Below are positions 21,408 to 43,178 of a stretch of DNA of 64,000 bases, one piece after another. This DNA comes from Chryseobacterium vaccae. Its GTDB lineage: Bacteria > Bacteroidota > Bacteroidia > Flavobacteriales > Weeksellaceae. Below the pieces are notes generated by a model. The model was given only the letters and a program-made list of their open reading frames with translations. It did not search any database and was not told the DNA's origin. The stretch is taken from the NCBI RefSeq assembly GCF_009602705.1, contig NZ_VSWH01000001.1, positions 1,612,001-1,676,000 on the forward strand, read 5' to 3'. Positions within the stretch are counted from its first letter, which is position 1. Every line of letters starts with the position of its first letter. The translations under genes were made by a program, and so were the position numbers.

Positions 21408-23162
21408 ATGCATAAAATTTACTTATCTCCGGTTACAATTATTATATCGTTTACAGCATTATTTTACCTGTTCTGCTCCTGTAATACATCCGGACAAGAT
21501 GGCAATGATTATCTTTATAAGTTCAATGATGAGGTTTCTGCTGTTAAAAATCAGCCTGAAAAAGTAAAAGCATTAGAAAAAAGAGAGTTGGAGAAATACA
21601 GAAAAAGCGGTAACCGCCTTTATCTGATCAGCAGTAAATACAGCCATCTTTTTATTAATTTTGGAATTTTTCCTAATGCAGGTGAAATCCCGTACATTTA
21701 TGAACTTATGTGTCTGAATGACGACCAATATGCCTATATAACGATTGTCTGTAACTTTAACCTGGCCTATCAATTTGAAAATATCTCTCCGGAGCAGTCC
21801 ATGCAATTTCTGAATAAAGCTATAGAAGCTGATGAAAAGACAGGCAAAATGTTATTATTACCTCACCTGTACCATCTAAAGGGAAAATTATATTTCAATG
21901 AAAAAAACTATAGTAAAGCTTTGATTTATTTTAATAAGGCTATGGAAGGTTATATCAGAAGAGGAAGAAAAGATGATACTGTGTATGTAGCCTCTATGTA
22001 CAATAACATAAGTATGGTCTATCAAAAGGTGAACAATATAGAATTGGGTATCAAAAATGCACAGAAAGGCATTGATATTTTAAGGAAAAAGAAAAATCTT
22101 AATCAGGAAGAAGAATATTATATTCACTATTTCAGTGGTAATCTTGCTACTTATTTTATAGAGCAACAGGATTATTTAAAGGCAGAAAAATTATTAGCAG
22201 CAGAATTAGAGTTTTGTAAAGATCGAGAAGTTTATTATAAGGATGCTATTGCTTCTTCACGGCGTTTGATTGATATTTATACCATTACCGGAGAAAAACA
22301 GAAGCATAATGCCGTTATTAATTTCCTGATCAATCTGGAACCTAAAATAAAATCCATCCATTATAAAATAGCCACCAATGAGATTCTTCAGAGTTATTAT
22401 CTGAAAATGGATGATCTTCAAAACTTAAAAATGGTTTCAAAAAGGATGGAATCTCTACAGCGTGAGCAGAATTCAATTTCTGAAAAGAAACTGCACAAGG
22501 TTTCTGATGCATTATATCAATATGTATTAAAAAAAATATACGAGGAATATGATCATAAAATGGATGACAACAAAAAGAGAAACTGGTTTCTTCTGGTCCT
22601 TGCATTATTTATCGTTTTATTCTTAATTTGGTTAATCTGGTATACTAAAAAGAAAAATAAAACAGAAAAAGAACTTCTGGAACAACAAAAGCTTCTACTG
22701 GAAGACAATAAAAAATTACTGGAAAAGGATGTACAGCTGCAAAAAGAAAAAAATAAAAATCTCCACTTAAGTCTTAATCTGAAAATTGAAACCGAAAAAG
22801 CTCTTCTTGAGAATCTGAAAAAGATAAGAAGAACAAAAAAAACCGATGTAGAAGAGAGTTTGAAGGAATTACAGTTCAAAATCAACAACCTGATCCAGAT
22901 TGATAATAAAAACTATGATTTTATGAATGAAAGTTCGTTGGAAAACAAGCTCTTTACGGAAAAACTTTCTCATCAATTTCCTTGTCTTACAGAACAGGAA
23001 CTTAATTTATGTGTTTATTTCAAGCTCAATCTTTCATCCAAAGAAGTTTCTTTGCTTGAAGGAATTACTTCGGGAAGTGTAAGGGTATACAAAACCAAAA
23101 TCAAATCAAAAATTGGATTAGGAAAAGAACAAAAATTGGACGATTTTCTCAATACAATCTAA
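21408..23162 (+). CDS. TPR lipoprotein sensor-regulator with TM helix and LuxR-like HTH
   Basis: About 584 residues from the preferred ATG at 21408, which gives a lipoprotein signal (hydrophobic run ending LFCSC); a longer start at 21345 would add 21 residues. The N-terminal two thirds is helical TPR-type solenoid (HLYHLKGKLYFNEKNYSKAL, MYNNISMVYQKVNNIELGI). A transmembrane helix follows (NWFLLVLALFIVLFLIWLIW), then a charged coiled coil, then a C-terminal LuxR/FixJ-type helix-turn-helix (LTEQELNLCVYFKLNLSSKE, SGSVRVYKTKIKSKIG). This architecture fits a membrane-anchored transcription regulator sensing the periplasm. It is a paralogue of the IS-disrupted gene at 32616-35518 and lies upstream of the giant surface protein gene. 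Confidence 0.85.
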   Translation: MHKIYLSPVTIIISFTALFYLFCSCNTSGQDGNDYLYKFNDEVSAVKNQPEKVKALEKRELEKYRKSGNRLYLISSKYSHLFINFGIFPNAGEIPYIYELMCLNDDQYAYITIVCNFNLAYQFENISPEQSMQFLNKAIEADEKTGKMLLLPHLYHLKGKLYFNEKNYSKALIYFNKAMEGYIRRGRKDDTVYVASMYNNISMVYQKVNNIELGIKNAQKGIDILRKKKNLNQEEEYYIHYFSGNLATYFIEQQDYLKAEKLLAAELEFCKDREVYYKDAIASSRRLIDIYTITGEKQKHNAVINFLINLEPKIKSIHYKIATNEILQSYYLKMDDLQNLKMVSKRMESLQREQNSISEKKLHKVSDALYQYVLKKIYEEYDHKMDDNKKRNWFLLVLALFIVLFLIWLIWYTKKKNKTEKELLEQQKLLLEDNKKLLEKDVQLQKEKNKNLHLSLNLKIETEKALLENLKKIRRTKKTDVEESLKELQFKINNLIQIDNKNYDFMNESSLENKLFTEKLSHQFPCLTEQELNLCVYFKLNLSSKEVSLLEGITSGSVRVYKTKIKSKIGLGKEQKLDDFLNTI

Positions 23163-24340
23163 ATTAAAAGCCTGCTACCCTTCTAAAATGTAATCCCCCC
23201 CTCTTCAAGTGGCTGCATTTAATGTTGTATTATTGGCTATTAAGATTCTTTCCAGGTCAGGGAAGGATCTGTTCTTTCATGTTCATAATAATATTTTACT
23301 GCTTTTAAAGCCAAATCGAGAGCTACATTGATGTTTGAAGAAAATGGCCCGAATTGGTCACCTATAACAATATCTTTATAATCTTTGTTATCTTGTTCTT
23401 TTATATTTGTTAAATCAAAAAACTCTCCACTACCACAGTAGGTGATAGAATATACTCATCGTATCCACCACCGATCAATAAATATCCAATGGAACTATCC
23501 ATTAATACTTGTGTAAGCTCTTTTTGATTTAGTTTTAAAATGCGATTTTCAACTTGATATAGCTATTATTTTAAAAATTGCAGCAGTTCTACAACTTAGA
23601 AATAAAATACTGTAAATCAAATATTTAAATAAACAATTTTCATCATTTCCAGATCTGTAAAGCTGCCCCATTGTCATTCAACCAATGAGGAAGAATGTCT
23701 GAGGTTAAATTTCCAGATTATATACATTGAATTTCTATTTTTTATATAGCCAGGCTAATATTTTTTTCCCGGATATGCCCTTTGTAATTCATATATATTA
23801 AGTAATCCCTTTTGCTGCAGTAAATATAACTTTCATCTTCAGACAAAGCCAATAACACTTCTTCTTTTTTGACTTTAATATTGTCTTTTATTCAATCACT
23901 TTTAAACTAATTTAAATACAACTGAATAAGGCAGAACAAAACGCACAGATTCTACATAACTAACTAAAAATCAAACACACTTATTTGTAAAAACGTTTAT
24001 TGGCATCTTGTTATTATTCAAAAATTTACATCTGAAAATTTCGGAAATCGTCCCATATGTTCTTTGCTAAAGAATATGAATTATCTTAATTATGCGCCTG
24101 AGAAATAATATGCTTGATAGCAAATCTGCAGCAAAAAAACGGAACAGAAATATTAAACACCCTGCACTAGCTTCCGTAAAACGTCTATGATTTGAATTTT
24201 TAATACGTTATTCCGGCATAAGTATTTTTACACCTGCTTTTTATGTTCTAAAGTTTCTAAATCATAAAAAATACCCAAAATATTCTCTCAATCAGATTGA
24301 CGATAGCACCATCAGAAATAGATATAAAAATACAGGAAAA
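23163..24340. other. Gene graveyard between regulator and HTH gene
   Basis: Contains several minus-strand decayed frames. One is the Imm1-like pseudogene listed separately. At 23742-23893 about 49 codons end a lost gene (KKEEVLLALSEDESYIYCSK then YLIYMNYKGHIREKNIS). At 23643-23715 about 24 codons read NLTSDILPHWLNDNGAALQI. All lack starts and are preceded by stops. The remaining 24000-24340 is AT-rich and presumably holds the promoter of the HTH gene; I see no clear box. Confidence 0.5.
23240..23562 (-). pseudogene. Frameshifted Imm1-like immunity protein remnant
   Basis: Two overlapping minus-strand frames join into one protein-like sequence. The first reads RILKLNQKELTQVLMDSSIG then YLLIGGGYDEYIL. 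The second, after a shift near 23450, reads ITYCGSGEFFDLTNI, then IGDQFGPFSSNINVALDLAL, then KAVKYYYEHERTDPSLTWKE and a stop. The GGGYDEY segment, the late run of AL-A-KAVKYYY and the terminal TW resemble Imm1-family immunity proteins of polymorphic toxin systems. It lacks a start (in-frame TAG at 23563). No toxin gene remains beside it. Family assignment is from motif memory, hence moderate confidence. Confidence 0.5.
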
Positions 24341-24763
24341 ATGAACTTTAAAAACATTCATATAGGATCCCTGATCAGTCAGAGAGTAGCAGAATGTGGA
24401 ATAGAAATTTCCCGTATCTGTAACTTTATGAAGCTTGAAGAAAAAGAAATAAAAAAAATGTATCAGGAAAAAATCCTTGATACCAAAGTCCTTCTGAAAT
24501 GGAGCAAACTTCTGGAGCATGATTTTTTCAGGATCTACTCCCAGCATCTTATTCTGTATGCTCCTCCCCCACATCCGCAGGTTCTAAAAGTGGAATCACA
24601 GCTGCCGCAATTCCGGAAAAATATATACACCAAAGAGATTATAGATTTCATTCTTGCACAGATTCAATCTGAAGAGATGAGCCGGAATCAGGTCATAGAA
24701 CAATATAAAATACCCAAAACAACACTCTATAAATGGATGGCAAGAAACAAAAAACAGAAGTAA
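24341..24763 (+). CDS. Small double-HTH putative regulator (transposase-like C-terminus)
   Basis: A 140-residue protein with two helix-turn-helix-like parts. Residues 1-75 resemble a Xre-type fold (IGSLISQRVAECGIEISRIC, then KWSKLLEHDFFRIYSQHLIL). Residues 88-136 resemble the HTH of IS3-type OrfA proteins (YTKEIIDFILAQIQS ... QYKIPKTTLYKWMARN). It has no catalytic domain, so it is more likely a DNA-binding regulator than a transposase. The stop lies 33 bases before the giant surface protein gene, which suggests co-transcription. A paralogue lies at 42373-42792, again beside surface-protein genes. Confidence 0.75.
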   Translation: MNFKNIHIGSLISQRVAECGIEISRICNFMKLEEKEIKKMYQEKILDTKVLLKWSKLLEHDFFRIYSQHLILYAPPPHPQVLKVESQLPQFRKNIYTKEIIDFILAQIQSEEMSRNQVIEQYKIPKTTLYKWMARNKKQK

Positions 24764-24796
24764 AAACAATAAAAAAACGATTCTAAAAAACAAATA

Positions 24797-27700
24797 ATGA
24801 AAAAACAAAAACTACTTTTTATCCTGTTGCTCTTTCTGGGTAATGTGATACTTTACGCACAGTGTAGTATCAATGCAGGAGGGAATGCCACGATATGCGG
24901 TACATCCTATACCCTACAGGGAAGTTCATCCGGCAGTACAAACGGGACACCAGTCTGGACACTGGTATCTAAACCTTCCGGAGCACCGGACCCGGTTATA
25001 AGCAACATTAATTCCCTGACCCCCAATGTTACGGGAATGACTTATCCAGGCAATTATGTATTTCAGGTGGCACAGAGCTGTAACCCTTCCGGAACAGTAA
25101 CCTCACAGGTAACCATTACAGCACCTGGAGATACCTCTACCTTTACCGCAGGCCCGGATATTACGGGCATACCTGCAACCACAGGAGTAGCTGCACTCAA
25201 TGCTACCATCCCGGCAGGATATACCGCATCATGGACATATTATAACATTTTCAGTTTTGAATCTAATGGAACTATTGCTACAACTAATGCCACGATGAGC
25301 AACACCACAACAGCAAGTCCTACATTAACGCTTACCAATAAAGCGGATCATACAACAGATCCTGCTTACCGTGCTGTACTGAGGATCACCTCCGTTAATA
25401 ACCCGAGTTGTTGGTATGAGGATGATGCAATCGTTAGGTTCATCCCGAATCCCAATATGACATTTCCTGCCACTTCTAGTCAATGTGTAACACCTGGTAC
25501 TAGCGGTGCTTCATTTTATTATGATGCTAATTCAACTTCACCAAAATTTTCAACATCTACGACTAATTCATCGGGAAATTCTTCTTTCGGGACAACCGTT
25601 ACCATGACTGTGGTAAGCCAGCCGGCTGGGGGGAATATTCAGTATTCCCGTATAGAGAACGGAAGACTTTACTTTTCAGGAATTACGACTACAGGTGCTT
25701 ATACATTCGATCTTACTATTTCGAATACCTTAGGCAGCTATACCAAAAGACTTACTTATAACTTTAATGGTACCCAGCCTGGCTTTTTAGATTTTATAGA
25801 TCCGGCATATCCCAATCAGATGGAGATTTTCAGTAATGTAGGTAGTGCAGGATCATTATATTGTAATATGGTGGGTTCTACAGCACCTATTACTTTTTAC
25901 TTTCAGATTAATTCAGCAGACCCTCCTACTACCATAACTTCAATAGCACCTTCCGGCGTAATCCCTTCAGGAGGAACACTATCTATAGTAGAAACTGGTG
26001 CAGGAACTATGAATAGAAGCGTAACCCTTACACCACCGTCTGGAGGATGGAGGGCAGGAACCTACAGATTTAACATTAATGTTGTTGGTGCTGGAGGTTG
26101 TAGCAGAACACCTTATTATTATGTTCATATATCAGATAATACCCGTCCTGCCGTTAATGTCGACAACATTACGGTATGTTATCCGGGATCTGGGGTGGTA
26201 TCGGCAACAGTACCATTACCTACAAGATATCAGACAACAACAGCAAATCCAAGTTATTTTCAGGATTTTGCAGGAAGATATGATTTCACTCTGGTTTCAG
26301 GTCCTGCAGGGGCAGCTGCTCCTACTTATGAGGCTACTACCGCAAGATCATTTACCAGCGCATCTACACAAATCAACAATCTCAATAAACCAGGAGAATA
26401 TGTTTTCAGAATAAAGGCTGCCGGCAGTAGTGGTTCTCAGGGGTTTATAAATGCAGAATACCTATGTGCAGGAACCTCATCCGAGGATACATTCTCCATA
26501 TTTGTATCTGCGCAGGTAGGTTCTAATGCAGGATCTGCCCAGACTTTGGTTGGAACTACCCAGACTACTTTCAATGGGAACAATCCGGGAGTTGCCACAG
26601 GTGCATGGACATTGTTATCCAAGCCTGCGGGTGCTACCGATCCTGTAATTGTAACACCATCAGCTTACAACACCAATGTTACAGGATTCAATACTCCGGG
26701 GGTATATACCTTCCGATGGACCGTTACCACAGGTACTTGTATAAGTACAAGTGATTTGACGGTTAATGTGGTGGCTCCGTCTCCCGGAGGTATAGCGGCA
26801 GCTGTATGGTACAAGGCAGATGCAGGTGTATATTCTGATGCAGGTACAACCGCAGCAGCAGATAATACTGCTGTTCAGCAATGGAATGATCAGATGGGAA
26901 CAGGCCGTAACCTTTTACAGACTACCGCTGCACAAAAGCCGGCTTTCTCTAACCAAAGCACACTGGCTAACTTCAACCCTACCGTAACTTTTAATGCCGA
27001 TTTTATGGCTGCTGATCCGGGAAGCGGAAATGAAATTATAACCCGTACCCAGGGAAGCATCTATATTGCCGGTAAAATGAATACTGTTGGAGCCTCAAAA
27101 ACCTCTTTTGCAGGTTTTGACCAGACCATGAATTATCCGGGATTGAGTACTTCCAATACTAATCCAAGTGATAAGCTGATGTTTTACAGTGGAGGTACTT
27201 ACAATTCGATATCTACCAATTTGTTTGTTACCCAAAAGCCTTTCGTTGCAGGTTCTTCATGGCTGAACGGAGGTGGTACACCTAATACCAATGTATTAGC
27301 GAAAGTATGGTTAGACGGTAACGAAAATATCTACAACAATACATCCTCGAATGTTAATACCGGTAATGGGTTACGCATTTTCAGGGTAGGTGGTGATACT
27401 GACTGGGGAAGCCTTGACGGGCAGTTGAATGAAACGATTGTATTTGCCAATCCTCTTTCCGCTTCAGAAAAAGCCCGTGTAGATTCTTATTTATCCGTTA
27501 AATGGGGATCAACATTGACAGGAGATTATGTAAGCTCCGATAATACTGTGGTGTGGACTACTTCCCCTATCTATCAGAATAATATTCTGGGTATTGCAAG
27601 GGATAATATTTCTGTTTTATACCAGAAACAATCGCGAAGTGAAAATATCGACCAGAAGCTGATCATAGGCGCAGGAAGTTCATTAGCAAATACCAATGCG

Positions 27701-30700
27701 GCAAACACCAATACCCTTACAGATAGACAATTCCTTCTTGCCGGTGATAACGGACTGGAGCAAAAGCTTAAAATACCTCTGTCTTATACAACTGGTTCCA
27801 ACGGTGTTGCCAACACCCGTTTCGAATCTATCTGGAAAGTACAGAATACCAATTCGGTAGGTACGGTAACGGTTGCATGGCCTAAAGATGTTAGCAATCT
27901 CTACTTGGTACAATCTACCGATGCAGTTTTTGACGGTACCGATACCTTTACCCCAATGGTAACAGAAGTTACCGTAAACGGTGTAGTGTACAATACAACC
28001 AATGTAACTTTAGCAAACGGACAATATTTTACTTTTGCAGGCTTTGTACCGAACTATTGTGTTAACGGCTGTAATCCAAACACCTTTGTAAATAGTTCAG
28101 ACCCTAATACCATAGAATACGACAATATAGTATCTATCTTTCATTCTACGATAGTAAAAGAAGGTGATGGAAGCTTTAAAACATGGGGAGCTATGGCTGC
28201 CCCTAACGGAACTTCACACTTGTTAGTCCCAACACCAATAACCTCCGCAAATGGTTTTAATTATACAGGAACACCGCTGAAAGCAACCGGAGGTATGAAT
28301 GTAGTAGCTGGTTTACCGGAACAACATGCTTTATTAACTACCGATGGGCTATATGTGTGGGGAGCAGCTAATATATTAATAAGTTCTTCCATTAAAAGTA
28401 CCACAGCTTTTGGTAAAATTACAGTTAATGGCAAAGCAGACGGTCTGCCTGCTGGTGTAATGCCTACCGATGTAAAAATGATGTTTGGATCTTACGGAAC
28501 GTTAGCTATTGTAACCTGCAGTGGTGAGGCTTGGGTATTGTCTATGAATGGTGCTAAAAATGGGGATGGTACAGCACAGAATGCAGTCAACAATGTGATC
28601 TGGCACCGTGTAAAAACATCGGCGATCGATAATCTTAACAACGTTGTAGCCATGCGAGGTACAACAAATGCTTTGTTTGCTTTAACTTCCGAAGGAAAAC
28701 TCTATACTTGGGGTACAGGTACGTATATTAATAACGGAGCTGCCGCCAACAGAACATATGCTACGGAAGTATCTGCCCCAGCAGGAATTACTCCTAAGAT
28801 GATTGGGATGACAGGTGGTTCATACTATCTGCTGGCTGACAATGGAAAACTCTATACCATGGGAAATAATGCCTACAAACAATTAGGAGATGGTACCACT
28901 ACAACCAAAACGACTTGGGTACAGCCGCTAAAAGTAACCAATCAGAATGGACAGGGTACGGGGCTATTAGAGAATATTGTATGGATCTCACCTAGCGAAC
29001 ATGCTGAAGATGCTGGTGGTCAACTTAGTGCTATTAATGTATTGACTAATAATAATAAACTATGGGCTTGGGGATCTAATAGTGGTTATATGATCGGAGG
29101 AGCCGTAGAGTCCGCCACCTATGATCCTATCTATATGCCGGGTGTAAGTGCCGCCTCCAATGGAATGAAAGTGACAGATGAAATTATTGCCGTAGAAACA
29201 AGTGGACATACCACTATGAATATTAAAAAGGGTACCGACACGTTTGGTTACGTAGGACACAGAGTCTATGGCAGTATGGGTGATGGCAGTTCTGCTGATC
29301 AAATGATCTCTACCTATAGTTATACTACCGCTATTTTGATGGTATGTGCTGTAAACTCCTCATCCTACTGCTACAAGCCAGGTATTACAGCCGGTACCGC
29401 ATTAGAAACCAAAGCAGGTATCACCTCTCTTGGCAGAGCCGGAGCAGATACAGATAACTGGCCAATGGTAAGAAAAGGAGGATGGATGGCTTTAGAATCT
29501 AAAACCAAAGCTTTTGTACCGAACAGGGTCGCTTTTGATGCATCAGGAAATCCTGTGGGTATTACAGCTGCCAACTTTGTAGAAGGTATGATGGTATATG
29601 ATACTACCAACAAATGCATGAAGATATACACCTTAAAAGAAGGAGGCGCTTCTATGGCCTGGCATTGCATCTCCACACAAGCATGCCCAGATGGTAGTTC
29701 CGGAGGTGGTGGCAGTACGTTATCACTGAATTGCTCATCAGCAGTATTCAGCCCTGCAACAGCTACACAGGGCACGATGTACAATGGTACCCTTACCGTA
29801 CCTTATACAGGTGGAAACGGGAGCAGTTATACAGCACAAAGCTTCACACAAAACGGATTGACATTTACCCGCCCTGCCGGTAATTTTGCTACAGGTAGCG
29901 GAAATATTGTGTACAACGTTACAGGTACTCCGGCAACGGCAGGTTCAATATCTGTAAGTATCAGTATAGGAGGACAAAGCTGTAATGGGCTTAGTCTTAC
30001 TGTAAACCCGTATGTGGGAGGTCCGGGTACATTAGCACTTAGCTGTTCATCAGCTATATTCAGTCCTTCAACGGCTACACAGGGTACAACATACAGTGGT
30101 ACACTTATGGTACCTTACACTGGAGGAAATGGAAGCAGCTATGGAGCACAAAGCTTTATACAAAACGGATTGACCTTTACACTTCCTGCAGGTACTTTTA
30201 CCACAGGCAGCGGAAACATTGTATACAACATTGCAGGTACTCCGGCAACAGCAGGTGTAACTTCTGTAAACATCAGCATAGCAGGACAAAGCTGTAGCGG
30301 GCTTAATCTTAGTGTAACCCCGGCCGGAGGAGGTATTTTACCATCTACCATCACTCTTCTACAGGATAGAAAGTCCTGGATAGCGTCAGTTTACGATACG
30401 GATTATATTCCTTATACAGCACCTACGGCGCCGGCAAGCTACAACCGCCCGGTAGCAGCGGACGGTATTAATGAATCCAAAACAGCAGACTATCAGGGTT
30501 CTATTACGACTACAGGCTTCACGGTGCAAATTCCTGTAGCGAATGTAACAGGCAGCGGAAATATAGCCGCATGGACGACTACAGCAGTAATACCGGCAGC
30601 TTATACAGAAGACGGACAATCCAGAATTTTAGAATTATCCTGGGCTGCACAGTCTTATACCACAGCTACCAAATTTATTACGGCTACCATCAAATCTTTG

Positions 30701-32211: not shown

Positions 32212-32220
32212 TACTGCAAA

Positions 32221-32577
32221 ATGAAAAAGAAAATTGTGCTTATCCAAGATGATAAAGATGTTCTTGAAGTTATGGATGAAATCTTGGAAGATGAGGGTTT
32301 TGATGTTATACCTTCATTGACAACCGAACCAATCAAAAGAATTGACAAAATCGATCCTGACTTGGTTATAGTAGATGATAACATAAAAGGCAGCAAAAAG
32401 GGATCAAAAGTAATTAAAGGATTAAAGGATGATCCTCAAACCGAAGATTTATCTGCTGTTTTAACCTCTACATCTTATGATTTGCCCAAAACGGCCGAAG
32501 CATGTAAGGCTGATGACTTTATTGAAAAACCGTTTGATATTGATCATATGATTAATGTAGTTAAAAAAAATTCTTGA
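32221..32577 (+). CDS. Stand-alone response-regulator receiver domain protein
   Basis: A 118-residue single-domain CheY-like receiver without an output domain. Acidic pocket D10/D11 (IQDDKD), phospho-acceptor D52 (LVIVDDNIKG), conserved T/S in VLTSTS near 82 and the conserved lysine K103 in EKPFDI are all present, so it should be phosphorylatable. It lies tail-to-tail with the IS-disrupted TPR regulator, 38 bases apart, and has its own promoter box. No histidine kinase is adjacent, so its partner is unknown. It may be a phospho-relay element. Confidence 0.85.
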   Translation: MKKKIVLIQDDKDVLEVMDEILEDEGFDVIPSLTTEPIKRIDKIDPDLVIVDDNIKGSKKGSKVIKGLKDDPQTEDLSAVLTSTSYDLPKTAEACKADDFIEKPFDIDHMINVVKKNS

Positions 32578-32615: not shown

Positions 32616-32812
32616 CTATATATTATTTAAAATATCGAAAAGTTTTCCGGATTTATCTGGGTTTACTTTAGAGTTAATCCTTGCTTTAAAAACCCTTACA
32701 CTTCCCTCTGTTATGTCTTCAAGAACTGAAATCTCCTTTGAACTTAAATTAAGTTTGAAATAAACGCACAGCTTAAGCTCTTTAGTACTAAGTAACGGAA
32801 ACTTCTTTGAGA
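32616..32812 (-). pseudogene. 3' part of IS-disrupted TPR/LuxR regulator
   Basis: Encodes the C-terminal LuxR-like HTH (SKKFPLLSTKELKLCVYFKL, then NLSSKEISVLEDITEGSVRV) matching the C-terminus of the intact paralogue at 21408-23162 almost residue for residue. It is cut off from its N-terminal part by the 1204-bp IS element. A chance ATG inside the IS end could give a 71-residue HTH fragment, but no promoter is evident. Confidence 0.9.
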
Positions 32813-32819
32813 GATTAGT

Positions 32820-34023: not shown

Positions 34024-35518
34024 GATTAGTCATGAATAAATTATTTTCAAAAGAGCTTTCACCAATGAAATCATAATTTTTCTTATCTATACGAATTAAA
34101 TTATTGATCTGAATGTATAAATCTTTCAATATTTCTTCAGTTTCAATATTTTTTGACATTCTTGTTCTTTTAAGATTGTATAAAAAAGCTTTTTCTGTTT
34201 CTATTTTTAGATTAAGATTAAGACGCATATTTTTATTTCTTTCTCTCTGAAGTAACAAATCTTGTTCAAGTATCTCCTTTTGATTTTTAATATGTTCCTT
34301 TTCCGCTCTATTCTTATTTTTTATACTTCTAAAAAATAGAATCAATACGATTAAGATCAGAAGTGATAAAATTAAAAAAAATCTATTTTTTCTTTCCTGA
34401 TCATGTATCTTGAAATTATACTTTTGATTGATGTCCTGTACCATATAATTATTTAGTACATCAGCAGTTTTACCAGCATCCCTACTTCTCTTCAGATCAT
34501 AACTATTATTCAAATCAAACAATTTTGCAGAAATTATTTTTAAATTTCTGAAGTCATTGGTTTCGGCATAATATTGTTGAATTATACTATTAGCTCTGAT
34601 TCTATTTGGGTAAGAATTTACTTTGGATTCGACATTTAGCAAGAAATTAATAACTTTTTCTTTTTTATGATGCTGTTTTGTAGTCCCAAATAAACTGAAT
34701 AGCTGTTCTAAAATAGTAATGGAGTTTCTGTAAAATTCTTCTTTGTCTTTAAAAAATTCGAATGCATTACATAAAAATGTTTCAGCATTACTGTAATCTT
34801 TGAGTGAATAATAATAAGCTCCTGCATTTGCAATCATAAGATTCATCAGAAACCTTTCTTCATTAGTTAGAATAGCTTTATTTTTTAGAATATTAATACC
34901 TATTAGCGTTTGCTGAATTGCCTTCCCTTGTTTTCCTAATTTATTGAAAGTCATCCCAAAATTATTATACATTGAAGCAATATAAAGGAGGTCATCTTTA
35001 TTTAGATTTTGTAAAGATTTATTAAAATAATAAATGGCGGAAGAATATTTTTTAGCATTATAAAACCATCTTCCCTTTGCATGATAAAGATGAGGCAAAA
35101 AATATTTTTTGCCATATCTTTCATCAATTTTTATAGCATCATCAAGGAATTTTAATCCAAATTCCGGAGAGTTTTGCTCAAATTGAAGAGCCAAAGCAAA
35201 ATTACAGGAAATAGAGATATACTCACTTTTGCTATCATTAAGTTTCAATAATTCATAAATTAAAGGAACTTGCTTGATGTTATTGTCTTCTCCTATGTAT
35301 AAAAAGCGTTCCAAATATTTACTGCTCATTAAATATTTGAGATCGTTAGACTTCTTATATTTTTTCAGCTCTCTGTCATATAATAATCGGATTTTTTTGG
35401 GATCAGAAACTATTGGTTTTATTTCTTCTTCGGTCAATTTATAAAAATACTCATTCGTATTATCATTCTGGCATGATAAGATGATGAAGAATGTGAATAT
35501 GATAAAAATTCTACTCAT
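34024..35518 (-). pseudogene. 5' part of IS-disrupted TPR/LuxR regulator
   Basis: Encodes the lipoprotein signal (MSRIFIIFTFFIILSC), the TPR solenoid, a transmembrane helix (NRFFLILSLLILIVLILFF) and the coiled coil, then runs into the IS and stops after a few bases. Joined with 32616-32812 it gives a 563-residue protein, close to the 584 residues of the intact paralogue. The ATG at 35518 is preferred over a TTG two codons upstream. The truncated product would keep the sensor and membrane part but lose the DNA-binding domain, so it should be unable to activate transcription. Confidence 0.92.
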
Positions 35519-36251
35519 GAGCAATATTTATTACGTCAAATTAAGAACAAAAAGGATTTACAAAATAGAATTTTCAAATGCAAGATCTATTATTAACAAA
35601 TAAAAATTATAATTAACTAAAAGCCAATATTTTAAATTAATAAAATTAACATATTTCACTAAGAAATCTCTTTTTTGTTAGCAATTGTTAACAACAATTT
35701 TAGCATTGATAAAATTATCATGATATAAATTCGCTGCCAGATCTCACACTAAGGATCGAAAAAAAAACCAAGTATTTATGAAAAATTTATTCGGATTACA
35801 TTTGTTATCCCTCCCTCTTCGCTGTGATAAGGCACAGCAATATATCCACAGAATACAAATAACAGACAGGAGATCTAACAGCCCACCTATCTATACTGGA
35901 ATACCAATTCTTCCAGATACTAATAATCGGCCTATAGAAAATACCCCTTCTTATTGTTTAGTCCGGGCTTTCCAGCACCATTTCCAGAGTAAACCACACA
36001 GTCTCTTGGAGCACTTCACCATTTACTTAAGCATTAGGAAAATATTTGTACATCTAAGACACATCCGAATTGCATATATCCGGAAGCCAAAAGCTATTAT
36101 TTAAGATGCTCAGAACCATTACTCTTCCTTGTATATATCATACAAACAAAGTGTAGGAGGTTAAGATTTTTTTCAAAAAAACACAAATTTATCCTGTTCA
36201 AAAAAACTGAACAACAGATCATTATAAACTTACTTGATAAAACAATTAATG
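35519..36251. other. Divergent control region with degraded secreted-protein start
   Basis: AT-rich region between the disrupted regulator and the plus-strand surface operon. At 35778 a frame opens with a signal-peptide-like MKNLFGLHLLSLPL and then turns into composition unlike any protein family; another frame nearby reads GTAIYPQNTNNRQE. This looks like a decayed member of the small surface-protein family, and I do not call it as a gene. No clear TAnnTTTG box was found for the operon. Confidence 0.4.
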
Positions 36252-36998
36252 ATGAAAAATTTTATTTTAGCAACCAGTTGCCTCATATTAAGCAGCAATA
36301 TTTTCGGTCAGGTTGGTATTAATACCTCAACCCCTGATATCTCCTCCATTTTAGAAATCAGGAGCACTAATAAAGGCATAAAAATCCCGAAAGTACAACT
36401 TACCTCTGTCACGGTGAAAGCCCCGGTTGCCCAGGTGGCGGACGGATTAATAATTTTTAATACCGCAGAAAACCTAACGGCAGTTCCAATACTTCATAAA
36501 GGTCTGCATGTTTGGAGCGAAGCATCGCAGAGATGGGAATATCTTATTTCAAAGACCAAATTGACAGAAATTACTGATGGGTTCGGAATTGAATTAGCTC
36601 AGGTTGCTTCAAATCAAACTACACCGCAAGCTTTTACGGCTACATTATCAGAACTTACATTCTCTTCCACTCTTCTTAACTATATGTCCGCATTTACTAC
36701 GGGTACAGACAGTTACTATACTGCCCCGGTAAAAGGAAGATATTATGCCAAATGCGGAATGGTGATCAATGCGTCAACATCAGCACAAATCCAGATCCGG
36801 GTTTACAATGCTTCCGGTACCGAAGATACCGGAAAAAGGCAAACTTTTGTTATGACCAGAGATAATATCGTAGGCGGACTTACAGTCAATGGCACAGTGT
36901 ATTTAGAACTGAATGCAAATGAACAAATACGATGTTGGGGAAGCTCTACCGGGAATGCCAGCAGTACTTCAAAATATTTTTATCTCACAAAATCTTAA
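36252..36998 (+). CDS. Secreted C1q/TNF-like surface protein 1
   Basis: About 248 residues from the ATG at 36252; upstream in-frame starts (TTG 36234, ATG 36249) only lengthen the N-terminus. Signal peptide MKNFILATSCLILSSNIFGQ. The next segment (VGINTSTPDISSILEI, STNKGIKIPKVQLTSV) is the short collar typical of Flavobacteriia surface proteins. The last 130 residues form a jelly-roll-like domain (YYTAPVKGRYYAKCGMVI, TVYLELNANEQIRCWG) resembling C1q-like trimerising heads. First gene of a five-gene surface operon. Confidence 0.7.
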   Translation: MKNFILATSCLILSSNIFGQVGINTSTPDISSILEIRSTNKGIKIPKVQLTSVTVKAPVAQVADGLIIFNTAENLTAVPILHKGLHVWSEASQRWEYLISKTKLTEITDGFGIELAQVASNQTTPQAFTATLSELTFSSTLLNYMSAFTTGTDSYYTAPVKGRYYAKCGMVINASTSAQIQIRVYNASGTEDTGKRQTFVMTRDNIVGGLTVNGTVYLELNANEQIRCWGSSTGNASSTSKYFYLTKS

Positions 36999-37098
36999 AA
37001 TATAAACTTATTCAATGATCAGGGGGCTGCTCATTCGAATTTCCACAGAAAATCAGACATCATAGAATAACAATTCTAAACATCTAAAAACATAAAAA

Positions 37099-37860
37099 AT
37101 GAAAAACATATTAATCTTTCTGATAACAACATTAATGACGAATGTCAAAGGGCAGGTCATTATTGGCAGCAGCAGTTCATCCGGTTCCGCCGTGTTGGAG
37201 GTGGTATCTGCCAACAAAGGAATGCTGATACCAAGACTGGATATTCCTGATTTTGACAATCCGAATCCCGTTACCAATCCCGCAGATATGCTGATAGCAA
37301 TGAATACCAATACCAGCTCCGGAACCGGGCTGGTTTATTGGGATGCTTCCGCTCCCAAGCAGTCAAATCCTTCCCTTACAGGGAGATGGGAACTGCTTTA
37401 CGAGCTGAGTACAATAATTAAAGATATCAGTACAAACGCAAGACGAGTTTATTTAGTCAGCCTTCAGACTTCCACAGCGGCTTTCAATCCAAATGTAGAG
37501 GTACAGACCCTTATGCAAAGCAATACAGTACTCCAGGGCAGTATCAGCGGTAATATTTATACTGTTCCCGAAACTGGTATATATGAGATCAATGCCAGGG
37601 TAAGTACATTTCAGGGAACAACATCTAGTGATGGATATCTGGAAGGCCGGATAAAGGTAAACGGTACTGTTGTAAAGGTAGGTCGGGCAAATAAAAATTC
37701 AGGCGCTCCAAATTCGTCAGCAGAGATGGTTCACAGGCTTTCTCTTATCGCCGGTGACCAGGTTTCGTACTATTTCTTTCAATCTATACCTACCGGTACG
37801 GGAACTACTCAGAATAGAAGGGCCTCACAGATTTCCGTAACAAGGCTGGACCCTTTATAA
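37099..37860 (+). CDS. Secreted C1q/TNF-like surface protein 2
   Basis: 253 residues with signal peptide MKNILIFLITTLMTNVKGQ, then the collar SAVLEVVSANKGMLIPRLDI and a segment with WDASAPKQ, and a C-terminal jelly-roll-like domain (GNIYTVPETGIYEINARVST, SLIAGDQVSYYFFQ). Same layout as the genes on both sides, indicating tandem duplication and divergence. Function probably structural or adhesive on the cell surface (inference). Confidence 0.7.
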   Translation: MKNILIFLITTLMTNVKGQVIIGSSSSSGSAVLEVVSANKGMLIPRLDIPDFDNPNPVTNPADMLIAMNTNTSSGTGLVYWDASAPKQSNPSLTGRWELLYELSTIIKDISTNARRVYLVSLQTSTAAFNPNVEVQTLMQSNTVLQGSISGNIYTVPETGIYEINARVSTFQGTTSSDGYLEGRIKVNGTVVKVGRANKNSGAPNSSAEMVHRLSLIAGDQVSYYFFQSIPTGTGTTQNRRASQISVTRLDPL

Positions 37861-37890
37861 AGCAACACAATATAGATACATTCATAGATC

Positions 37891-38685
37891 ATGAAAAACT
37901 TAAAATATAATTTAGCCATCATCACATTCCTGTGTTTTACTTTATTATCAAACGCACAGGTAGCCATAACGCTTTCAAATATTCCCGACCCAACACCGCA
38001 TGCTTCAGCTGTTCTGGATATGGATTTTCCAGTCAATACAAACAATGGGATTCTGTTGCCTAAAATTCCGCTGAAAAACACTACTGATAAAGATATCATT
38101 ACCAATCCTGCCAATTATCTTCTTGTTTACAGCAACCCTAATCCGGCACTTAATAGCCCTTCCAAAGGACTCGCTTACTGGGACCCCGGCGCTCCCGTTC
38201 AGCCGCAATGGTCTACCGTGGCTAATATAACGAATGTGTCTGAGAGCTTAGGCATCAAGGGAGTAATAAAAACTTTAGCTTATGCCAGGCAAAATACCCC
38301 GGAGACTACTTTACATATCACAGGTACTAGTGGCGGCTATAAAATTAAATTTGAAACGGAATATCTGGATATTATGAATGCATTTAACCTTTCAACACAT
38401 GAGTATACGATTTCCTCCCCCGGAGTCTATTCTGTAAAGTGTTTGATCAATATAACAGTTGGCCAGGCAGCCGCATCAGCACAGGCATTTGTTATCCGAA
38501 ATGGTGCTGTGATGTCTTCGGGATCTCTTGTTCAAACCACAGGAGCAGGTACAAGCTGGCCGCTTTCCATAAGCTCATATCTTAATCTGGCAGCGGGAGA
38601 TAAAATGGCCTGTGGAGCAGGCTATGGATCATATGGCGCAAGTACATTTAAAGTAAATAACGCAGTTTTAGTTATTTCCCAATAA
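37891..38685 (+). CDS. Secreted C1q/TNF-like surface protein 3
   Basis: 264 residues; signal peptide MKNLKYNLAIITFLCFTLLS then NAQ. The collar (PHASAVLDMDFPVN, NNGILLPKIPLKNT) and the phrase YWDPGAPVQPQW are shared with the preceding gene. The C-terminal domain (YTISSPGVYSVKCLINIT, SSYLNLAAGDKMACGAG) again resembles a C1q/TNF jelly roll. Spacing of 30 bases from the upstream gene and 64 to the next supports one operon. Confidence 0.7.
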   Translation: MKNLKYNLAIITFLCFTLLSNAQVAITLSNIPDPTPHASAVLDMDFPVNTNNGILLPKIPLKNTTDKDIITNPANYLLVYSNPNPALNSPSKGLAYWDPGAPVQPQWSTVANITNVSESLGIKGVIKTLAYARQNTPETTLHITGTSGGYKIKFETEYLDIMNAFNLSTHEYTISSPGVYSVKCLINITVGQAAASAQAFVIRNGAVMSSGSLVQTTGAGTSWPLSISSYLNLAAGDKMACGAGYGSYGASTFKVNNAVLVISQ

Positions 38686-38749: not shown

Positions 38750-41599
38750 ATGAGAAACCTTTTCCGATTTATTTTTTTTGGTATTTCACCGGCATTGTTT
38801 AAAAGCATAGTCATATTCTTTATGCTTTCACTGACCGGTCTCGTATATGCGCAATGCCCAACCCAGGTAGAAAAAATAACCCCTACGACCAACTTCTATG
38901 ATTTCAATGGAGCCACTGCGGCTGCAAATATGCCTATTACAAGCATACCTGCTACAACGGGCTGGACAGGCTCCTATACCATGAGCAATAACGATGGTAC
39001 ACCTTTTACAGGCAGTCCCGATCCGGCCACGGTCAACCAGGTGTTTGCCGGCAACGATTATACACTTTTTAACCAGCAGATGGTTAACGGACATCTTGAC
39101 CAATTCGCAACGCACCCTATTACCAATGCAAATCCTTTAGGCACAGGTGCTAAAGTGACGCTTGTAGTCTGGGTAGTTGACTCTGGCACACCCGGTTATA
39201 ATATGGATTTTTATATACGTTACGGTAATTCAGCTACTCCGGCTGGTAATCCTATATATGGAACAATAAGCTCTGCAATCAACACAAATGCCAATGCAAC
39301 GGTAACAGCCAGTAATGGAGCCACATTATTATCGCCCGCAACTATTGCAGTGGGAGGCTACCGAACCATTACCATCCAACTGCCTCCAGGCATTCCCAAT
39401 AACGGAAACATTATGTTGCACTATGCTCCTGCCTCATTTGCTAATCCTGCCAATGGAACAGCAGATGATATCAGGGTTCAAAGCGTAAGCTTCCTGGCAT
39501 GTCCGGACTTAGATAGCGATGATGACGGAATTTTAGATACAGCCGAAGGGTATTGTCAAAATTCATTGTTTGATATTGGATGGACCAGCAACACTCCTCC
39601 AGGAACACTGACACAGGACATATATTGGCCCACTGCTCCTGCAGGTAGCAGTATTCCCGGGCGTGATACCAGTATAGCAGCTACTGCCGACAGCTTTGTC
39701 TGGGGATCAGGGATTAGTCACACGCAAGATGGTACCAGATGGCAATTAAGTGGGGTAAATCAAAGCTCTTTGGCCAATGCCAAAGCCAACAATGATTATA
39801 TACAATACTCGTTTACTACACCTGCAGCCTTAGCAGGATATCATGAAATTAGCAAATTCGGTTGGGCGTCTACTCCAAATATCAATGAGTATTGGGTTGG
39901 AGCTGAAGTTTCTACCAATGCCTTTACTACACCGGGGACATTGTTGCTGGAAAACTTCATAATTCCTGTTACGGGCAGCTATACCTATTTATCGGCAACC
40001 TCTTTGGTTAATAAGGTCCACCTGTTGCCCAATACCACGTATACATTCAGGATATACGTATATGGGGCATCCGCCGCCGGTACTCCTGTAAGATATGATG
40101 ACTTCCAGATCGGAACCTGCCAATCTTTAGACACCGATAGCGACGGCATACCAGACTTTCAGGATCTGGATTCTGACGGGGATGGATGCCCTGACGCCAT
40201 AGAGGGAGATGAAACTGTTCAGGCAGGACAGCTCAATCCTAACGGCAGCATTAATACCACTGCCAGCGGAGGCATCAATGGAAATGGTGTTCCTAATCTT
40301 GTCAACTCAGGAGGAACAGCAGATATCGGCGGAGATGTAGGACAGGATGTGGGAGTCTCCACAAGCACTTTAGTAAATTATTGTACAGATACTGATCATG
40401 ATGGAATTCCTGACATCGAAGACATTGATAAAGATAACGATGGGATTTCAGATACTGACGAAGGGTATTGTCAAAATTCACTGTTTGATGCCGGATGGTT
40501 CAGCAACACTCCTGCTGGAACACTGGTTCAGGACAGGTATTGGCCTACGGCACCTACAGGCACAAACATGACCGGGCGTGATACCAATATAGCAGCATCT
40601 GCCGGTAATATGGTTTGGGGTTCCGGAATAACCCGTGCCCTAGACCCGAACACTTCTAACAGATGGATTTTAAGCAGTATCAATGAAAGTTCATTAGCCA
40701 ATGCCCGAAGCAATAATGATTATGTGCAATACTCTTTTACGACGCCTACCACGTTAACAGGATACCACGAGATCAGTAAATTTGGCTGGTCCTCTGCATT
40801 AAATGGCAATGCATACAGAGTTGGAGTTGAAATTTCTGCTAATGCCTTTTCCACAGCGGGAACATTGTTGTTGGAAAATTTTACAATACCAGCCTCAACA
40901 CCTTATTTATATCTCATCGGCTCTCCGCTAAATAATAAAATTCATCTGCTACCCAATACAACATATACATTAAGGGTTTACATATATGGATTAGCCACCA
41001 GCAATCTAGAGGCAAGGTATGACGACTTCCAGTTCGGAACCTGCCAATCCCTTGACACCGATGGTGACGGCACCCCTGATTTTCTGGATCTGGATTCTGA
41101 CGGAGACGGCTGCCCTGACGCTATAGAAGGAGATGAAAATGTATTAAACGAACATCTGAATACGGACGGAAGCATCAACACTACAGCTAATGGAGGTGTG
41201 AATGGGAATGGTGTCCCTAATCTGGTAAATAATGGAGGTATTGCTGATACTGGCGGAGATGTAGGACAGGGAACCGGAGGTTCTGTAAATGCTTTAGTAA
41301 ATAGCTGTTTTTGTTATAAGAATGCGGTGATTTCAGGCACATCGCTGGATACCACTCTAGGAATTACTTCATTAGGCAGAGCAGGTATAAACAATGGCAA
41401 TTGGCCTATGGCCAGAAAGGGAGGATGGATTGCGTTGGAAGCAAAAACTAAAGGTTTTGTACCTAACAGATTAACAACAGTACAAAAGAATTCATTAATA
41501 CCCGTGGAAGGAATGATGGTTTACGATACTAATCTGGACTGCTTAAGTATTTATGACGGCCTGGGATGGAAATGTTTCAACGTTCAGACATGTCCTTAA
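38750..41599 (+). CDS. Large surface protein with thrombospondin type 3 repeats
   Basis: 949 residues with a long signal peptide (hydrophobic core ending TGLVYAQ). Residues 30-245 are a beta-rich domain. Two 305-residue units follow; each has a galactose-binding-like beta domain (SLFDIGWTSNTPPGTL / SLFDAGWFSNTPAGTL, FTTP...GYHEISKFGW) and Asp-rich calcium-binding thrombospondin type 3 repeats (DSDGIPDFQDLDSDGDGCPD). The last about 95 residues (LGITSLGRAGINNGNWPMAR, KGGWIALEAKTKGFVPNRL, EGMMVYD) match the module at residues 1525-1630 of the giant protein at 24797. Probably an extended, calcium-stiffened surface stalk. No T9SS signal is visible. Confidence 0.85.
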   Translation: MRNLFRFIFFGISPALFKSIVIFFMLSLTGLVYAQCPTQVEKITPTTNFYDFNGATAAANMPITSIPATTGWTGSYTMSNNDGTPFTGSPDPATVNQVFAGNDYTLFNQQMVNGHLDQFATHPITNANPLGTGAKVTLVVWVVDSGTPGYNMDFYIRYGNSATPAGNPIYGTISSAINTNANATVTASNGATLLSPATIAVGGYRTITIQLPPGIPNNGNIMLHYAPASFANPANGTADDIRVQSVSFLACPDLDSDDDGILDTAEGYCQNSLFDIGWTSNTPPGTLTQDIYWPTAPAGSSIPGRDTSIAATADSFVWGSGISHTQDGTRWQLSGVNQSSLANAKANNDYIQYSFTTPAALAGYHEISKFGWASTPNINEYWVGAEVSTNAFTTPGTLLLENFIIPVTGSYTYLSATSLVNKVHLLPNTTYTFRIYVYGASAAGTPVRYDDFQIGTCQSLDTDSDGIPDFQDLDSDGDGCPDAIEGDETVQAGQLNPNGSINTTASGGINGNGVPNLVNSGGTADIGGDVGQDVGVSTSTLVNYCTDTDHDGIPDIEDIDKDNDGISDTDEGYCQNSLFDAGWFSNTPAGTLVQDRYWPTAPTGTNMTGRDTNIAASAGNMVWGSGITRALDPNTSNRWILSSINESSLANARSNNDYVQYSFTTPTTLTGYHEISKFGWSSALNGNAYRVGVEISANAFSTAGTLLLENFTIPASTPYLYLIGSPLNNKIHLLPNTTYTLRVYIYGLATSNLEARYDDFQFGTCQSLDTDGDGTPDFLDLDSDGDGCPDAIEGDENVLNEHLNTDGSINTTANGGVNGNGVPNLVNNGGIADTGGDVGQGTGGSVNALVNSCFCYKNAVISGTSLDTTLGITSLGRAGINNGNWPMARKGGWIALEAKTKGFVPNRLTTVQKNSLIPVEGMMVYDTNLDCLSIYDGLGWKCFNVQTCP
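39551..41290 (+). repeat. 915-bp tandem duplication within the thrombospondin-repeat gene
   Basis: The sequence TATTGTCAAAATTC recurs at 39551 and 40466, and the following beta domain and Asp-rich repeats align throughout, so the period is 915 bp (305 codons). Divergence between the units is larger than between the 312-bp repeats of the giant gene. Confidence 0.8.
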
Positions 41600-41634
41600 T
41601 TTATATAAAAAGATAATTTAATATTAAAAAGAAG

Positions 41635-42168
41635 ATGAAAACTATATTATTCGCAACAGCGGGCTTACTGTCTTCCTTTGTGCAGGCACAAATAGCAATA
41701 GGCAAGACATCAGTATCCAATACATCCGTTTCTTTAGAGTTTGCAGCAGAAAATAAAGGGATGATATTGCCATGGGTTACCAATACTGCATCAGTAACAG
41801 GAGCAGTAAACGGAACCTTAGTTTATGATCTTACTGATAAAAAAGTGAAGGTGAAATATGCCTCAGGATGGAAAGACTTATCTGTAGACACTACAGGAAG
41901 TACAATAGATCCAATAACAAATATTGATGCAGCCATCATCCAGAATTCTGCGAATGAAAACACTTCGGCAAAGACAAGCATAGGAACCGTAAATACAACC
42001 TCCGGAATACTGGTACTTGAAGACACCAATAAATCAATGATATTACCCAAAGTAGCCAGTCCGCATCTTAATATCATCAATCCCGCGCCCGGCCTGATTG
42101 TGTATGACACCACTGCAAAACTTCTGGCAGTTTTCAACGGGAAGGTATGGAGCTTCTGGAAACCATAA
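41635..42168 (+). CDS. Short secreted protein with duplicated collar motif
   Basis: 177 residues; signal peptide MKTILFATAGLLSSFVQAQ. It carries two copies of the motif seen in the other small surface proteins: SLEFAAENKGMILPWV with GTLVYDLTDKKVKVKY, and LVLEDTNKSMILPKV with GLIVYDTTAKLLAVFNGKVW. It thus looks like two collars without a jelly-roll head, perhaps an anchor or subunit for its neighbours (inference). Last gene of the surface operon, followed by a hairpin. Confidence 0.75.
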   Translation: MKTILFATAGLLSSFVQAQIAIGKTSVSNTSVSLEFAAENKGMILPWVTNTASVTGAVNGTLVYDLTDKKVKVKYASGWKDLSVDTTGSTIDPITNIDAAIIQNSANENTSAKTSIGTVNTTSGILVLEDTNKSMILPKVASPHLNIINPAPGLIVYDTTAKLLAVFNGKVWSFWKP

Positions 42169-42203
42169 AATATTTTTTACAGTGAAATTTTGATTCACAG
42201 TTC

Positions 42204-42258
42204 CCTTCAGCCATACAAAATGTTTTGATCTTTATCATTTCCCAGTTTTGGCTGAAGG
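42204..42258 (+). terminator. Long-loop hairpin ending the surface operon
   Basis: CCTTCAGCCA at 42204-42213 pairs perfectly with TGGCTGAAGG at 42249-42258 across a 35-base AT-rich loop. No T tract follows, so termination efficiency is uncertain. Confidence 0.45.
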
Positions 42259-42372
42259 TTAGCTGTTAACTTTCTCTGATAAAATTTAAAAAATCCTTTT
42301 AAGATCTTTATAATCAATGCAGAATTCAATTTTAGTTTCAAAATTTTTCACAAAAACAATAAGTTGTATTTC

Positions 42373-42792
42373 ATGAAAAACTTTCAACATATCAATATTG
42401 GTGCTCTACTTAAACAAAGAGCACAAGAATTAAATATCAGCGAACAACGTATCTGTAATTTTCTTAAATGCAAGGAACAAGAAATTGCAAAAATGTATCA
42501 ATCGGAACATATGGAAACAGGTTTATTACTTAGATGGAGCAAACTTTTGGAATACGATTTTTTCAGGATTTATTCACAACATCTGATATTATTTGCTCCC
42601 CCTTCAAATAGACAGAAATCAAATAATAAATCTACCATGCCACAATTTAAAAAAAGCATTTATACCATAGAGATCATACAATTTTGTATGGAACTTATCA
42701 ACACAGGTCAAAAAACAAAACAGCAAATTATAGAAGAATATAATATTCCTAAAACCACATTATATCGATGGATAAATAAGTACGATAAGTAG
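42373..42792 (+). CDS. Small double-HTH putative regulator, paralogue 2
   Basis: About 139 residues from the ATG at 42373 (a TTG at 42364 would add three). It closely matches the protein at 24341-24763 over the whole length: INIGALLKQRAQELNISEQR and RWSKLLEYDFFRIYSQHLIL in the N-terminal part, YTIEIIQFCMELIN and EYNIPKTTLYRWINKY in the C-terminal HTH. Most differences lie in the linker. It is followed 32 bases later by a third small HTH gene. Likely regulator of the adjacent surface operon, by position only. Confidence 0.75.
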   Translation: MKNFQHINIGALLKQRAQELNISEQRICNFLKCKEQEIAKMYQSEHMETGLLLRWSKLLEYDFFRIYSQHLILFAPPSNRQKSNNKSTMPQFKKSIYTIEIIQFCMELINTGQKTKQQIIEEYNIPKTTLYRWINKYDK

Positions 42793-42824
42793 ATTCAATC
42801 AAAAGTATTAAATAATAATATTGC

Positions 42825-43178
42825 ATGTCACGCATAACATTTAAATATATGAAGTATTCCAGCACACCGAATTACAAGAAAATCTATGAAGATATTTTGG
42901 TTTTTAAATTCCCTAACAAGAAAGAAGATTGCAAAGCTATTCTTTCTAAAAATAATATTTCAGTGATAAATATAATTCGTTTAAATGAGATTATATTTGG
43001 AACAGAAAATTTATTAAATACTGTTCAGAACCAGCGGTTCAGGTCTTATGACAAATCTATCATATTTGAAATGCTGGAGTATCAGAAAAAGAATAATTTA
43101 AATAACACTGAGCTTGCTAATCATTTTAAACTAAGTAGAAATACTGTAACCAAATGGAAAAAAATGTTTATTATTTAA
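42825..43178 (+). CDS. Small HTH protein, companion of the double-HTH regulator
   Basis: 117 residues (109 if the ATG at 42849 is used, which starts MKYSSTPNYKKIYEDIL and may be the true start). The N-terminal half (KKEDCKAILSKNNISVINII, RLNEIIFG) is of a kind I do not recognise. The C-terminal part (YDKSIIFEMLEYQKKN, NNTELANHFKLSRNTVTKWK) is a helix-turn-helix like those in transposase OrfA and small regulators. Probably co-transcribed with the preceding gene. Role unknown. Confidence 0.65.
   Translation: MSRITFKYMKYSSTPNYKKIYEDILVFKFPNKKEDCKAILSKNNISVINIIRLNEIIFGTENLLNTVQNQRFRSYDKSIIFEMLEYQKKNNLNNTELANHFKLSRNTVTKWKKMFII

Follow-up and report, generated by a model that had tools for sequence, protein, structure and literature searches.

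The window analysed here, a stretch of 64,000 nucleotides of the Chryseobacterium vaccae genome (contig 1, 1612001-1676000), carries at ~21.3-43.2 kb a locus in which regulators with tetratricopeptide repeats (TPR) and a helix-turn-helix (HTH) domain are encoded alongside small double-HTH (dHTH) and single-HTH (sHTH) proteins and an assortment of large and small exported proteins (Table 1). We estimate, at roughly two chances in three, that this locus comprises two neighbouring cassettes for exported, adhesin-like proteins, both belonging to a family found in multiple copies in Chryseobacterium and related Weeksellaceae, and that these cassettes would be governed by the control scheme proposed below; the survey that follows establishes the anatomy, pairing, order and distribution of these cassettes. 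As a preliminary description of this DNA had supposed, no account of such a cassette family was found in the literature searched, most subscription journals lying outside its coverage.

All the genes which that description had listed are present, namely a TPR protein, two double-HTH proteins, a giant mosaic protein, a disrupted TPR-LuxR regulator, an operon of exported proteins and a further HTH gene. The first regulator is a TPR protein with a single internal transmembrane (TM) helix, and its HTH C-terminus has no match to GerE (Pfam, E <= 0.01), a domain found in 12 of the 23 aligned TPR-LuxR proteins among which it was counted. The disruption of the second regulator is likewise real: its cause is an insertion sequence (IS) of the IS481 family, beyond which the LuxR-type C-terminus can be recovered.

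Table 1. Genes and elements of the locus, in window coordinates
Feature	Position	Strand	Remarks
TPR-LuxR regulator 1	21408..23162	+	584 aa; frame opens at 21345 (GTG); lipobox-like/export N-terminus (by eye), TPR, TM helix at residues 393-411, C-terminal HTH region
dHTH 1	24341..24763	+	140 aa, double HTH; without sHTH partner
Giant exported mosaic protein	24797..31579	+	2260 aa; Ig-like/LamG-like stretches (by eye), RCC1 repeats, internal GMMVYDT domain, weak FISUMP C-terminus
Orphan response-regulator receiver domain	32221-32577		118 aa; between giant and broken regulator 2; no output domain
Broken TPR-LuxR regulator 2, C-terminal LuxR-type HTH fragment	~32616..32831	-	Listed frame starts within IS end
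IS481-family element	32820..34023	-	Transposase 32871-33956; 7-bp target duplication GATTAGT; splits regulator 2
Broken regulator 2, N-terminal piece	34016..35524	-	TPR, TM helix, linker; last few codons run into IS
Exported ~250-aa protein 1/3	36234..36998	+	Likely start 36252; C1q-like label weak
Exported ~250-aa protein 2/3	37099..37860	+
Exported ~250-aa protein 3/3	37891..38685	+	BclA_C-like C-terminal domain, below cut-off
949-aa exported protein	38750..41599	+	Acidic DxDxDG-type repeats (by eye); conserved giant C-terminal domain (..EGMMVYDT..WKCF..CP)
S180, exported partner	41635..42168	+	177 aa; GxxVYDTxxKxLxxxxGxxW module x2 (by eye); PF26696 precomputed for database copy
dHTH 2	42364..42792	+	Likely start 42373
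sHTH	42825..43178	+	117 aa, single C-terminal HTH; directly behind dHTH 2

Exported proteins and the order of the cassettes

The survey compared 127 dHTH loci (11 from C. vaccae itself, 40 from relatives and 76 named loci) with 40 random control regions of ~20 kb drawn from the C. vaccae genome and nine of the relatives, all within the genus. These loci derive from 11 further dHTH regions fetched from C. vaccae (one of them cut at 12.6 kb), 40 regions out of 11 relatives, and 80 named loci kept from candidate stretches of which, among the matches listed, at least 549 of 597 were confirmed; not counted are the window, one named locus in which no dHTH was called, and L138, L202 and L208, each of which has a dHTH identical to that of another locus. 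Family labels in the final counts are based on hidden Markov models (HMMs) seeded from the C. vaccae dHTH loci, the relatives and named loci were selected on their dHTH score, loci that are orthologues of each other do not count as independent, and two of the 40 controls (L105 and L115) overlap fetched dHTH regions in part.

Four exported families were scored. S180 occurs at 44 of the 127 loci and the giant at 38, both being absent from the controls; the TRI family occurs at 35 (1/40 controls) and the C1q-like family at nine (0/40; not significant, p 0.08). Any exported family is present at 77 loci against one control (C. vaccae 8/11, relatives 15/40, named 54/76). TPR-LuxR regulators were found at 51/127 loci and in no control, TPR-AraC regulators at 35/127 against 2/40, and either type at 80/127 (63%) against 2/40 (C. 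vaccae 5/11, relatives 24/40, named 51/76), while regulator and exported family are both present at 55 loci. When the 131 loci before deduplication were clustered by BLAST, TPR-LuxR fell in 62/131 and in 1/40 controls. The expectation that these three kinds of genes co-occur above chance is thus borne out, and the C. vaccae chromosome gives the same picture from the other side: seven of its eight S180 copies lie within 10 kb of a dHTH gene (random mean 0.41; 0/5000 shuffles), as do eight of its 22 TPR-HTH loci (random mean 1.16; 0/5000 shuffles).

The usual order is [TPR regulator]–[leader]–exported proteins–giant–S180–dHTH–sHTH, where the leader is an open reading frame (ORF) described below. 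The exported genes lie mostly upstream of the dHTH gene on the same strand (C1q-like 22/22, giant 38/43, S180 43/50, TRI 34/59), and S180 is the next gene after the giant in 34 of 41 cases, the next but one in two and elsewhere in five. Against this survey the first unit of the window, with its regulator/HTH/giant order, is atypical, having no sHTH and the giant placed after the dHTH. Three types of loci recur across species: a fusA-SulP type (six loci, names by eye), one with a 330-aa LuxR-like regulator (three) and one with a divergent TPR-AraC gene (three).

The giants vary in length and retain a conserved C-terminal domain, and S180 is built of the same module; its predicted structure is poor (mean pLDDT 57). 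The FISUMP assignment given earlier to the giant of the window reduces to a weak C-terminal match below both curated cut-offs (PF09603, 21.9 vs 33.9 bits; TIGR02145, 15.5 vs 41.65). Among eight giants of relatives, a legume-type lectin and CshA were found together in one, DUF11 in three, DUF6923 in two, VWA below cut-off in one and Y_Y_Y, also below cut-off, as the sole match of another, with no match in three. In the 949-aa protein, which lies in what had been described as a C1q-like and thrombospondin-repeat operon, acidic repeats are visible by eye, but they have no Pfam match. The C1q-like label of the ~250-aa proteins is weak too: only the third has Pfam matches (BclA_C, E 3e-5; C1q, E 0.029), both below cut-off, and the 26 aligned proteins of the C1q-like and TRI families yielded BclA_C in one and TNF in one (best E 3e-5, below cut-off). 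Triplets of consecutive ~250-aa C1q-like paralogues, as at 36234-38685 of the window, recur at L025, L141, L153 and L206, and in the last three of these loci the genes resemble one another position by position (first with first, second with second, third with third), a pattern compatible with a heterotrimer.

The type IX secretion system (T9SS) sorting tail PF18962 was found neither in the giant and the 949-aa protein of the window nor in the eight giants of relatives, other sorting domains not having been tested. Just upstream of the locus (18814-20253) lies an RCC1-repeat protein that does bear this tail, unlike the giant at 24797, which has RCC1 repeats as well. Display at the surface of these proteins, which carry N-terminal export signals, is putative. 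In sum, the preliminary description caught a real and recurring system, and was partly supported; its parse into duplicated units, its C1q label and its surface display call for correction.

The paired HTH proteins and the TPR regulators

At the core of the cassettes is a nearly invariant gene pair, dHTH and the sHTH behind it. The C. vaccae genome encodes 13 dHTH and 12 sHTH proteins; each of the 12 sHTH genes adjoins a dHTH gene, and the single dHTH without such a neighbour is the first one of the window. Across the survey an sHTH is present at 120/127 loci as against 0/40 controls. Counted over 146 dHTH genes (duplicates and the window included), it lies downstream on the same strand in 127, upstream in three, on the opposite strand in one and more than 3 kb away in eight, and is missing in seven, with a median gap of 17 nt in the paired cases. 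The distances among dHTH proteins agree with those among their sHTH neighbours, both in C. vaccae (12 units; Mantel rho 0.72, 0/999 shuffles) and across species (115 loci; rho 0.50, 0/199 shuffles).

The two halves of the window are paralogous, their dHTH proteins being 54% identical and the N-terminal part of regulator 2 being 42% identical to regulator 1. They do not, however, stem from a recent duplication of a unit, as had been suggested: no C. vaccae dHTH exceeds 67% identity to its best paralogue in the genome, and all 13 have a closer copy in another species, a comparison in which the ~10-fold larger pool of foreign copies favours cross-species best matches. The halves are, as far as sequence comparison tells, old, separate family members lying side by side. 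Copies of dHTH were found in all 30 genomes drawn from the genus (1-19 each), in 49/148 genomes and 6/28 genera drawn from the family, two same-genus genomes being without one, and in 6/296 genomes drawn from the phylum, all of the same genus; among the matches listed, the 80 named loci come from Chryseobacterium, Empedobacter, Epilithonimonas, Soonwooa, Algoriella, a Flavobacteriaceae and one Sphingobacterium.

The predicted model of dHTH (mean pLDDT 76.6) shows a five-helix XRE-like N domain followed by a trihelical C domain. Its structure matches, XRE-type ones included, are suggestive only; the VIA list reflects the N domain alone, so that a family missing from it is not thereby excluded, and a sequence search against solved structures gave nothing convincing. 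The relatives of dHTH make up 3185 database clusters, and nearly all of the 120 listed are without a name. It could be argued that dHTH and sHTH are a transposase-derived, mobile pair that spreads alone into variable surface islands and leaves its neighbours unregulated: four of the six named proteins among those 120 are called transposase and one recombinase family protein, there is a weak likeness to the HTHs of the IS3/IS481 type, the copy number per genome is as variable as noted above, and a short Empedobacter tilapiae contig (L209:1-5771) carries three tandem dHTH genes ~2.4 kb apart with exported proteins between them. We regard this as quite improbable, given that the proteins have only 140 and 117 aa with weak, mainly HTH-type Pfam matches, that the pairing is strict and co-inherited, that several loci keep their gene order across species, that the pair holds a non-random same-strand place behind exported genes, and that none of 72 candidate stretches in viral contigs was confirmed as a relative. 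This last result, together with a PHROGs scan that gave weak matches only, also led us to discard a phage origin; a PADLOC scan gave no match.

Copies of dHTH differ very little in their C-terminal helix, which suggests a common DNA site. A k-mer search for an operator was obscured by A+T bias; once shuffled and real controls were included, a directional AAACACAA motif stood out, which is ~3.6-fold enriched in held-out units (0.75 vs 0.21 per kb at threshold 10), lies upstream in 9 of the 13 C. vaccae units and is at chance level in the window. In the sequences bearing it, 18 of 20 TAnnTTTG boxes are upstream of the motif, and therefore it may lie in the transcript; we offer it as a candidate site and a lead only. 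At six loci (L032, L055, L061, L066, L071 and L082) the dHTH-sHTH pair is kept beside fusA-/SulP-like genes (by eye), with no exported family and no TPR regulator called, and these are possibly core copies acting in trans.

The IS481 transposase that interrupts regulator 2 scores 277.5 bits against a cut-off of 224 (NF033577), and the inverted ends of the element are present. The genome holds eight copies, identical in protein, the other seven elements matching that of the window over 1204 bp without a mismatch and each flanked by a 7-bp repeat, so that the break in regulator 2 is recent. Four of the eight have a TPR-HTH gene no more than 3 kb away (contig 1 287102-288305, 1300568-1301771, 1644820-1646023, which is the window copy at 32820-34023, and 2702152-2703355; random mean 0.27, 0/5000 shuffles), the window copy sitting inside one; a target preference of the element or dispensability of the regulators could explain this crowding.

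The TPR-LuxR regulators are weakly co-inherited with dHTH (Mantel rho 0.20; 32 loci), and the notion of a TPR regulator as an obligate part of the cassette is not supported. This weak co-inheritance, the IS481 crowding just described and the 50 of 127 loci without exported families all lend something to another interpretation, that accessory islands simply gather dispensable adhesin-like, regulator and HTH genes that form no functional unit. It is about as improbable as a mobile pair, for it leaves unaccounted the kept order and strand, the adjacency of giant and S180, that of dHTH and sHTH, and the loci conserved across species.

Leader frames with a C-terminal RPPP

Although no such frame was found in the window, sister cassettes elsewhere have ~200-aa signal-bearing ORFs that end in RPPP (rarely RAPP, RGPP or RSPP), most of them a short distance upstream of the gene for a giant or for some other exported protein. 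RPPP was found in 37 of the 2519 ORFs of the dHTH loci, in 36 of them within the last 30 residues, and in 0 of 741 control ORFs; counted over stop-to-stop frames, the figures are 38/8942 and 0/2987. We called 42 leaders by the RxPP motif, 36 with RPPP and six with the rare variants; the latter are not above control (6/8942 vs 3/2987 frames) and were counted as leaders for position and anatomy. The 42 leaders occur at 41/127 dHTH loci, namely at 38/77 loci with an exported family as against 3/50 without, and at 25/38 loci with a giant; an RPPP-ending ORF lies within two genes before 18 of 41 giants. By position alone, the gene within 700 nt downstream is a giant in 22 cases, TRI in 11, S180 in two, TPR-LuxR in one and another in six.

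In 37 of the 42 the motif lies 2-9 residues before the stop, and a hydrophobic 15-mer falls within the first 60 residues in 38 of them, compared with 62 of 153 control ORFs of 140-240 aa (on a crude scale). The 36 RPPP motifs are written with 29 codon strings and the residues around them vary; therefore it is the peptide and not the DNA that is kept. In the C. vaccae genome the RPPP pattern has 55 matches, of which 46 encode Arg and the other nine, by codon, Ser. In four of the Arg-coding matches the motif is preceded by 100 or more open codons and the frame closes no more than 25 residues after it; each of these neighbours a giant or a different gene of the cassettes. The same neighbourhood is seen for one match with 69 open codons, but not for two others, with 69 and 75. 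A search with one leader returned only six homologues, which suggests fast evolution.

These leaders have the anatomy of RAPP-type translation-arrest peptides, from which we infer an arrest mechanism. According to one report (PMC12992588), the Arg of ApdA/ApdP is irreplaceable, while the second position fully permits Gly and partly permits Ser, Asp and Pro; the same report finds an excess of small RAPP/RGPP proteins, frequently carrying localisation signals, ahead of sec, TonB-receptor, copper and thiol genes, and its main text does not contain RPPP. In another (PMC10987492), RPPP is among the motifs searched in Escherichia coli and Bacillus subtilis. No report of RPPP arrest peptides before exported genes of this kind was found in the literature searched. 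In a control region, a 118-aa ORF ending in RGPP (L119:10967-11323) lies ~280 nt before a gene resembling, by eye, a TonB-type receptor, an arrangement that matches the RGPP-TonB class reported in PMC12992588.

The leaders might instead be ordinary small exported proteins in which RPPP serves sorting or binding rather than ribosome arrest. To this end one may cite that 36 of the 42 fall in one BLAST cluster and that 21 share an IFISEGT-type N-terminal motif (2/670 other ORFs), so that a portion of the protein may be functional in its own right; moreover, RNA folding found no strong hairpin at the leader junction, and Pro in second place is only partly permissive in ApdA/ApdP (PMC12992588). The retention of four residues amid changing codons and surroundings, their closeness to the stop, the location mostly upstream of exported genes and the accepted variants A, G and S, which are those reported as arrest-permissive though not above control, all tell against it, and we consider it unlikely.

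Proposed control and comparison with known systems

On this basis we propose that the periplasmic TPR part of the regulator senses the state of the envelope or surface and that its cytoplasmic HTH switches on the exported-protein genes. A leader, where present, would stall its own ribosome unless export pulls the nascent chain free, and such arrest would tie expression of the giant to export or assembly capacity; giant and S180 may then assemble through their shared module. The dHTH and sHTH proteins, encoded last, would jointly bind DNA and exert feedback on their own cassette and, because of the near-constant C-terminal helix of dHTH, perhaps on sister cassettes. Since unit 2 has recently lost its TPR regulator to IS481 and unit 1 is without sHTH, both units of the window may be uncoupled from normal control. 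In its fullest form this scheme would be a three-layer control of giant adhesin families, with a membrane TPR-HTH sensor, an arrest peptide with RPPP that monitors secretion and gates the giant, and, at the end of the operon, a dHTH-sHTH pair that through a common DNA specificity connects the copies within a genome, perhaps to restrict expression to a few of them at once; as a whole we regard this as speculative and unlikely.

If dHTH relatives do regulate exported-protein operons, a role would be found for a large unexplained family that is mostly called transposase where it is named. Likewise, should the leaders prove to be arrest peptides, control by translation arrest would reach beyond the export machinery to the exported adhesin-like proteins themselves. 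More generally, the cassettes would offer a way into the question of how Weeksellaceae select from their many paralogous exported proteins.

Membrane one-component regulators of the ToxR/CadC kind combine a sensor part, one TM helix and a DNA-binding domain in one chain. The TPR-HTH regulators share this logic, but differ in their TPR-array sensor, their C-terminal HTH and their location near exported-protein cassettes. Fimbrial and adhesin operons with PapB/PapI are comparable in organisation, as multiple paralogous surface operons with private small DNA-binding proteins; they differ from the present cassettes, where the dHTH-sHTH pair stands behind the exported genes. Small XRE regulators such as SinR, C.Esp1396I and HigA are set apart by the second HTH of dHTH and its near-constant sHTH neighbour. 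The RAPP-type arrest peptides ApcA, ApdA, ApdP and CruR (and, by analogy, SecM and VemP) resemble our leaders (PMC12992588, PMC10987492) in being small, in bearing an N-terminal export signal and R-x-P-P near the stop, and in lying just upstream of another gene. Among our putative arrest leaders RPPP is dominant, whereas the Bacteroidota upstream ORFs named there end in NAP or NSP. The downstream genes reported there are likewise different: they include sec/yidC and sacT as well as genes for TonB receptors and for copper and thiol factors, while in the cassettes they are giant adhesin-like and related exported genes.

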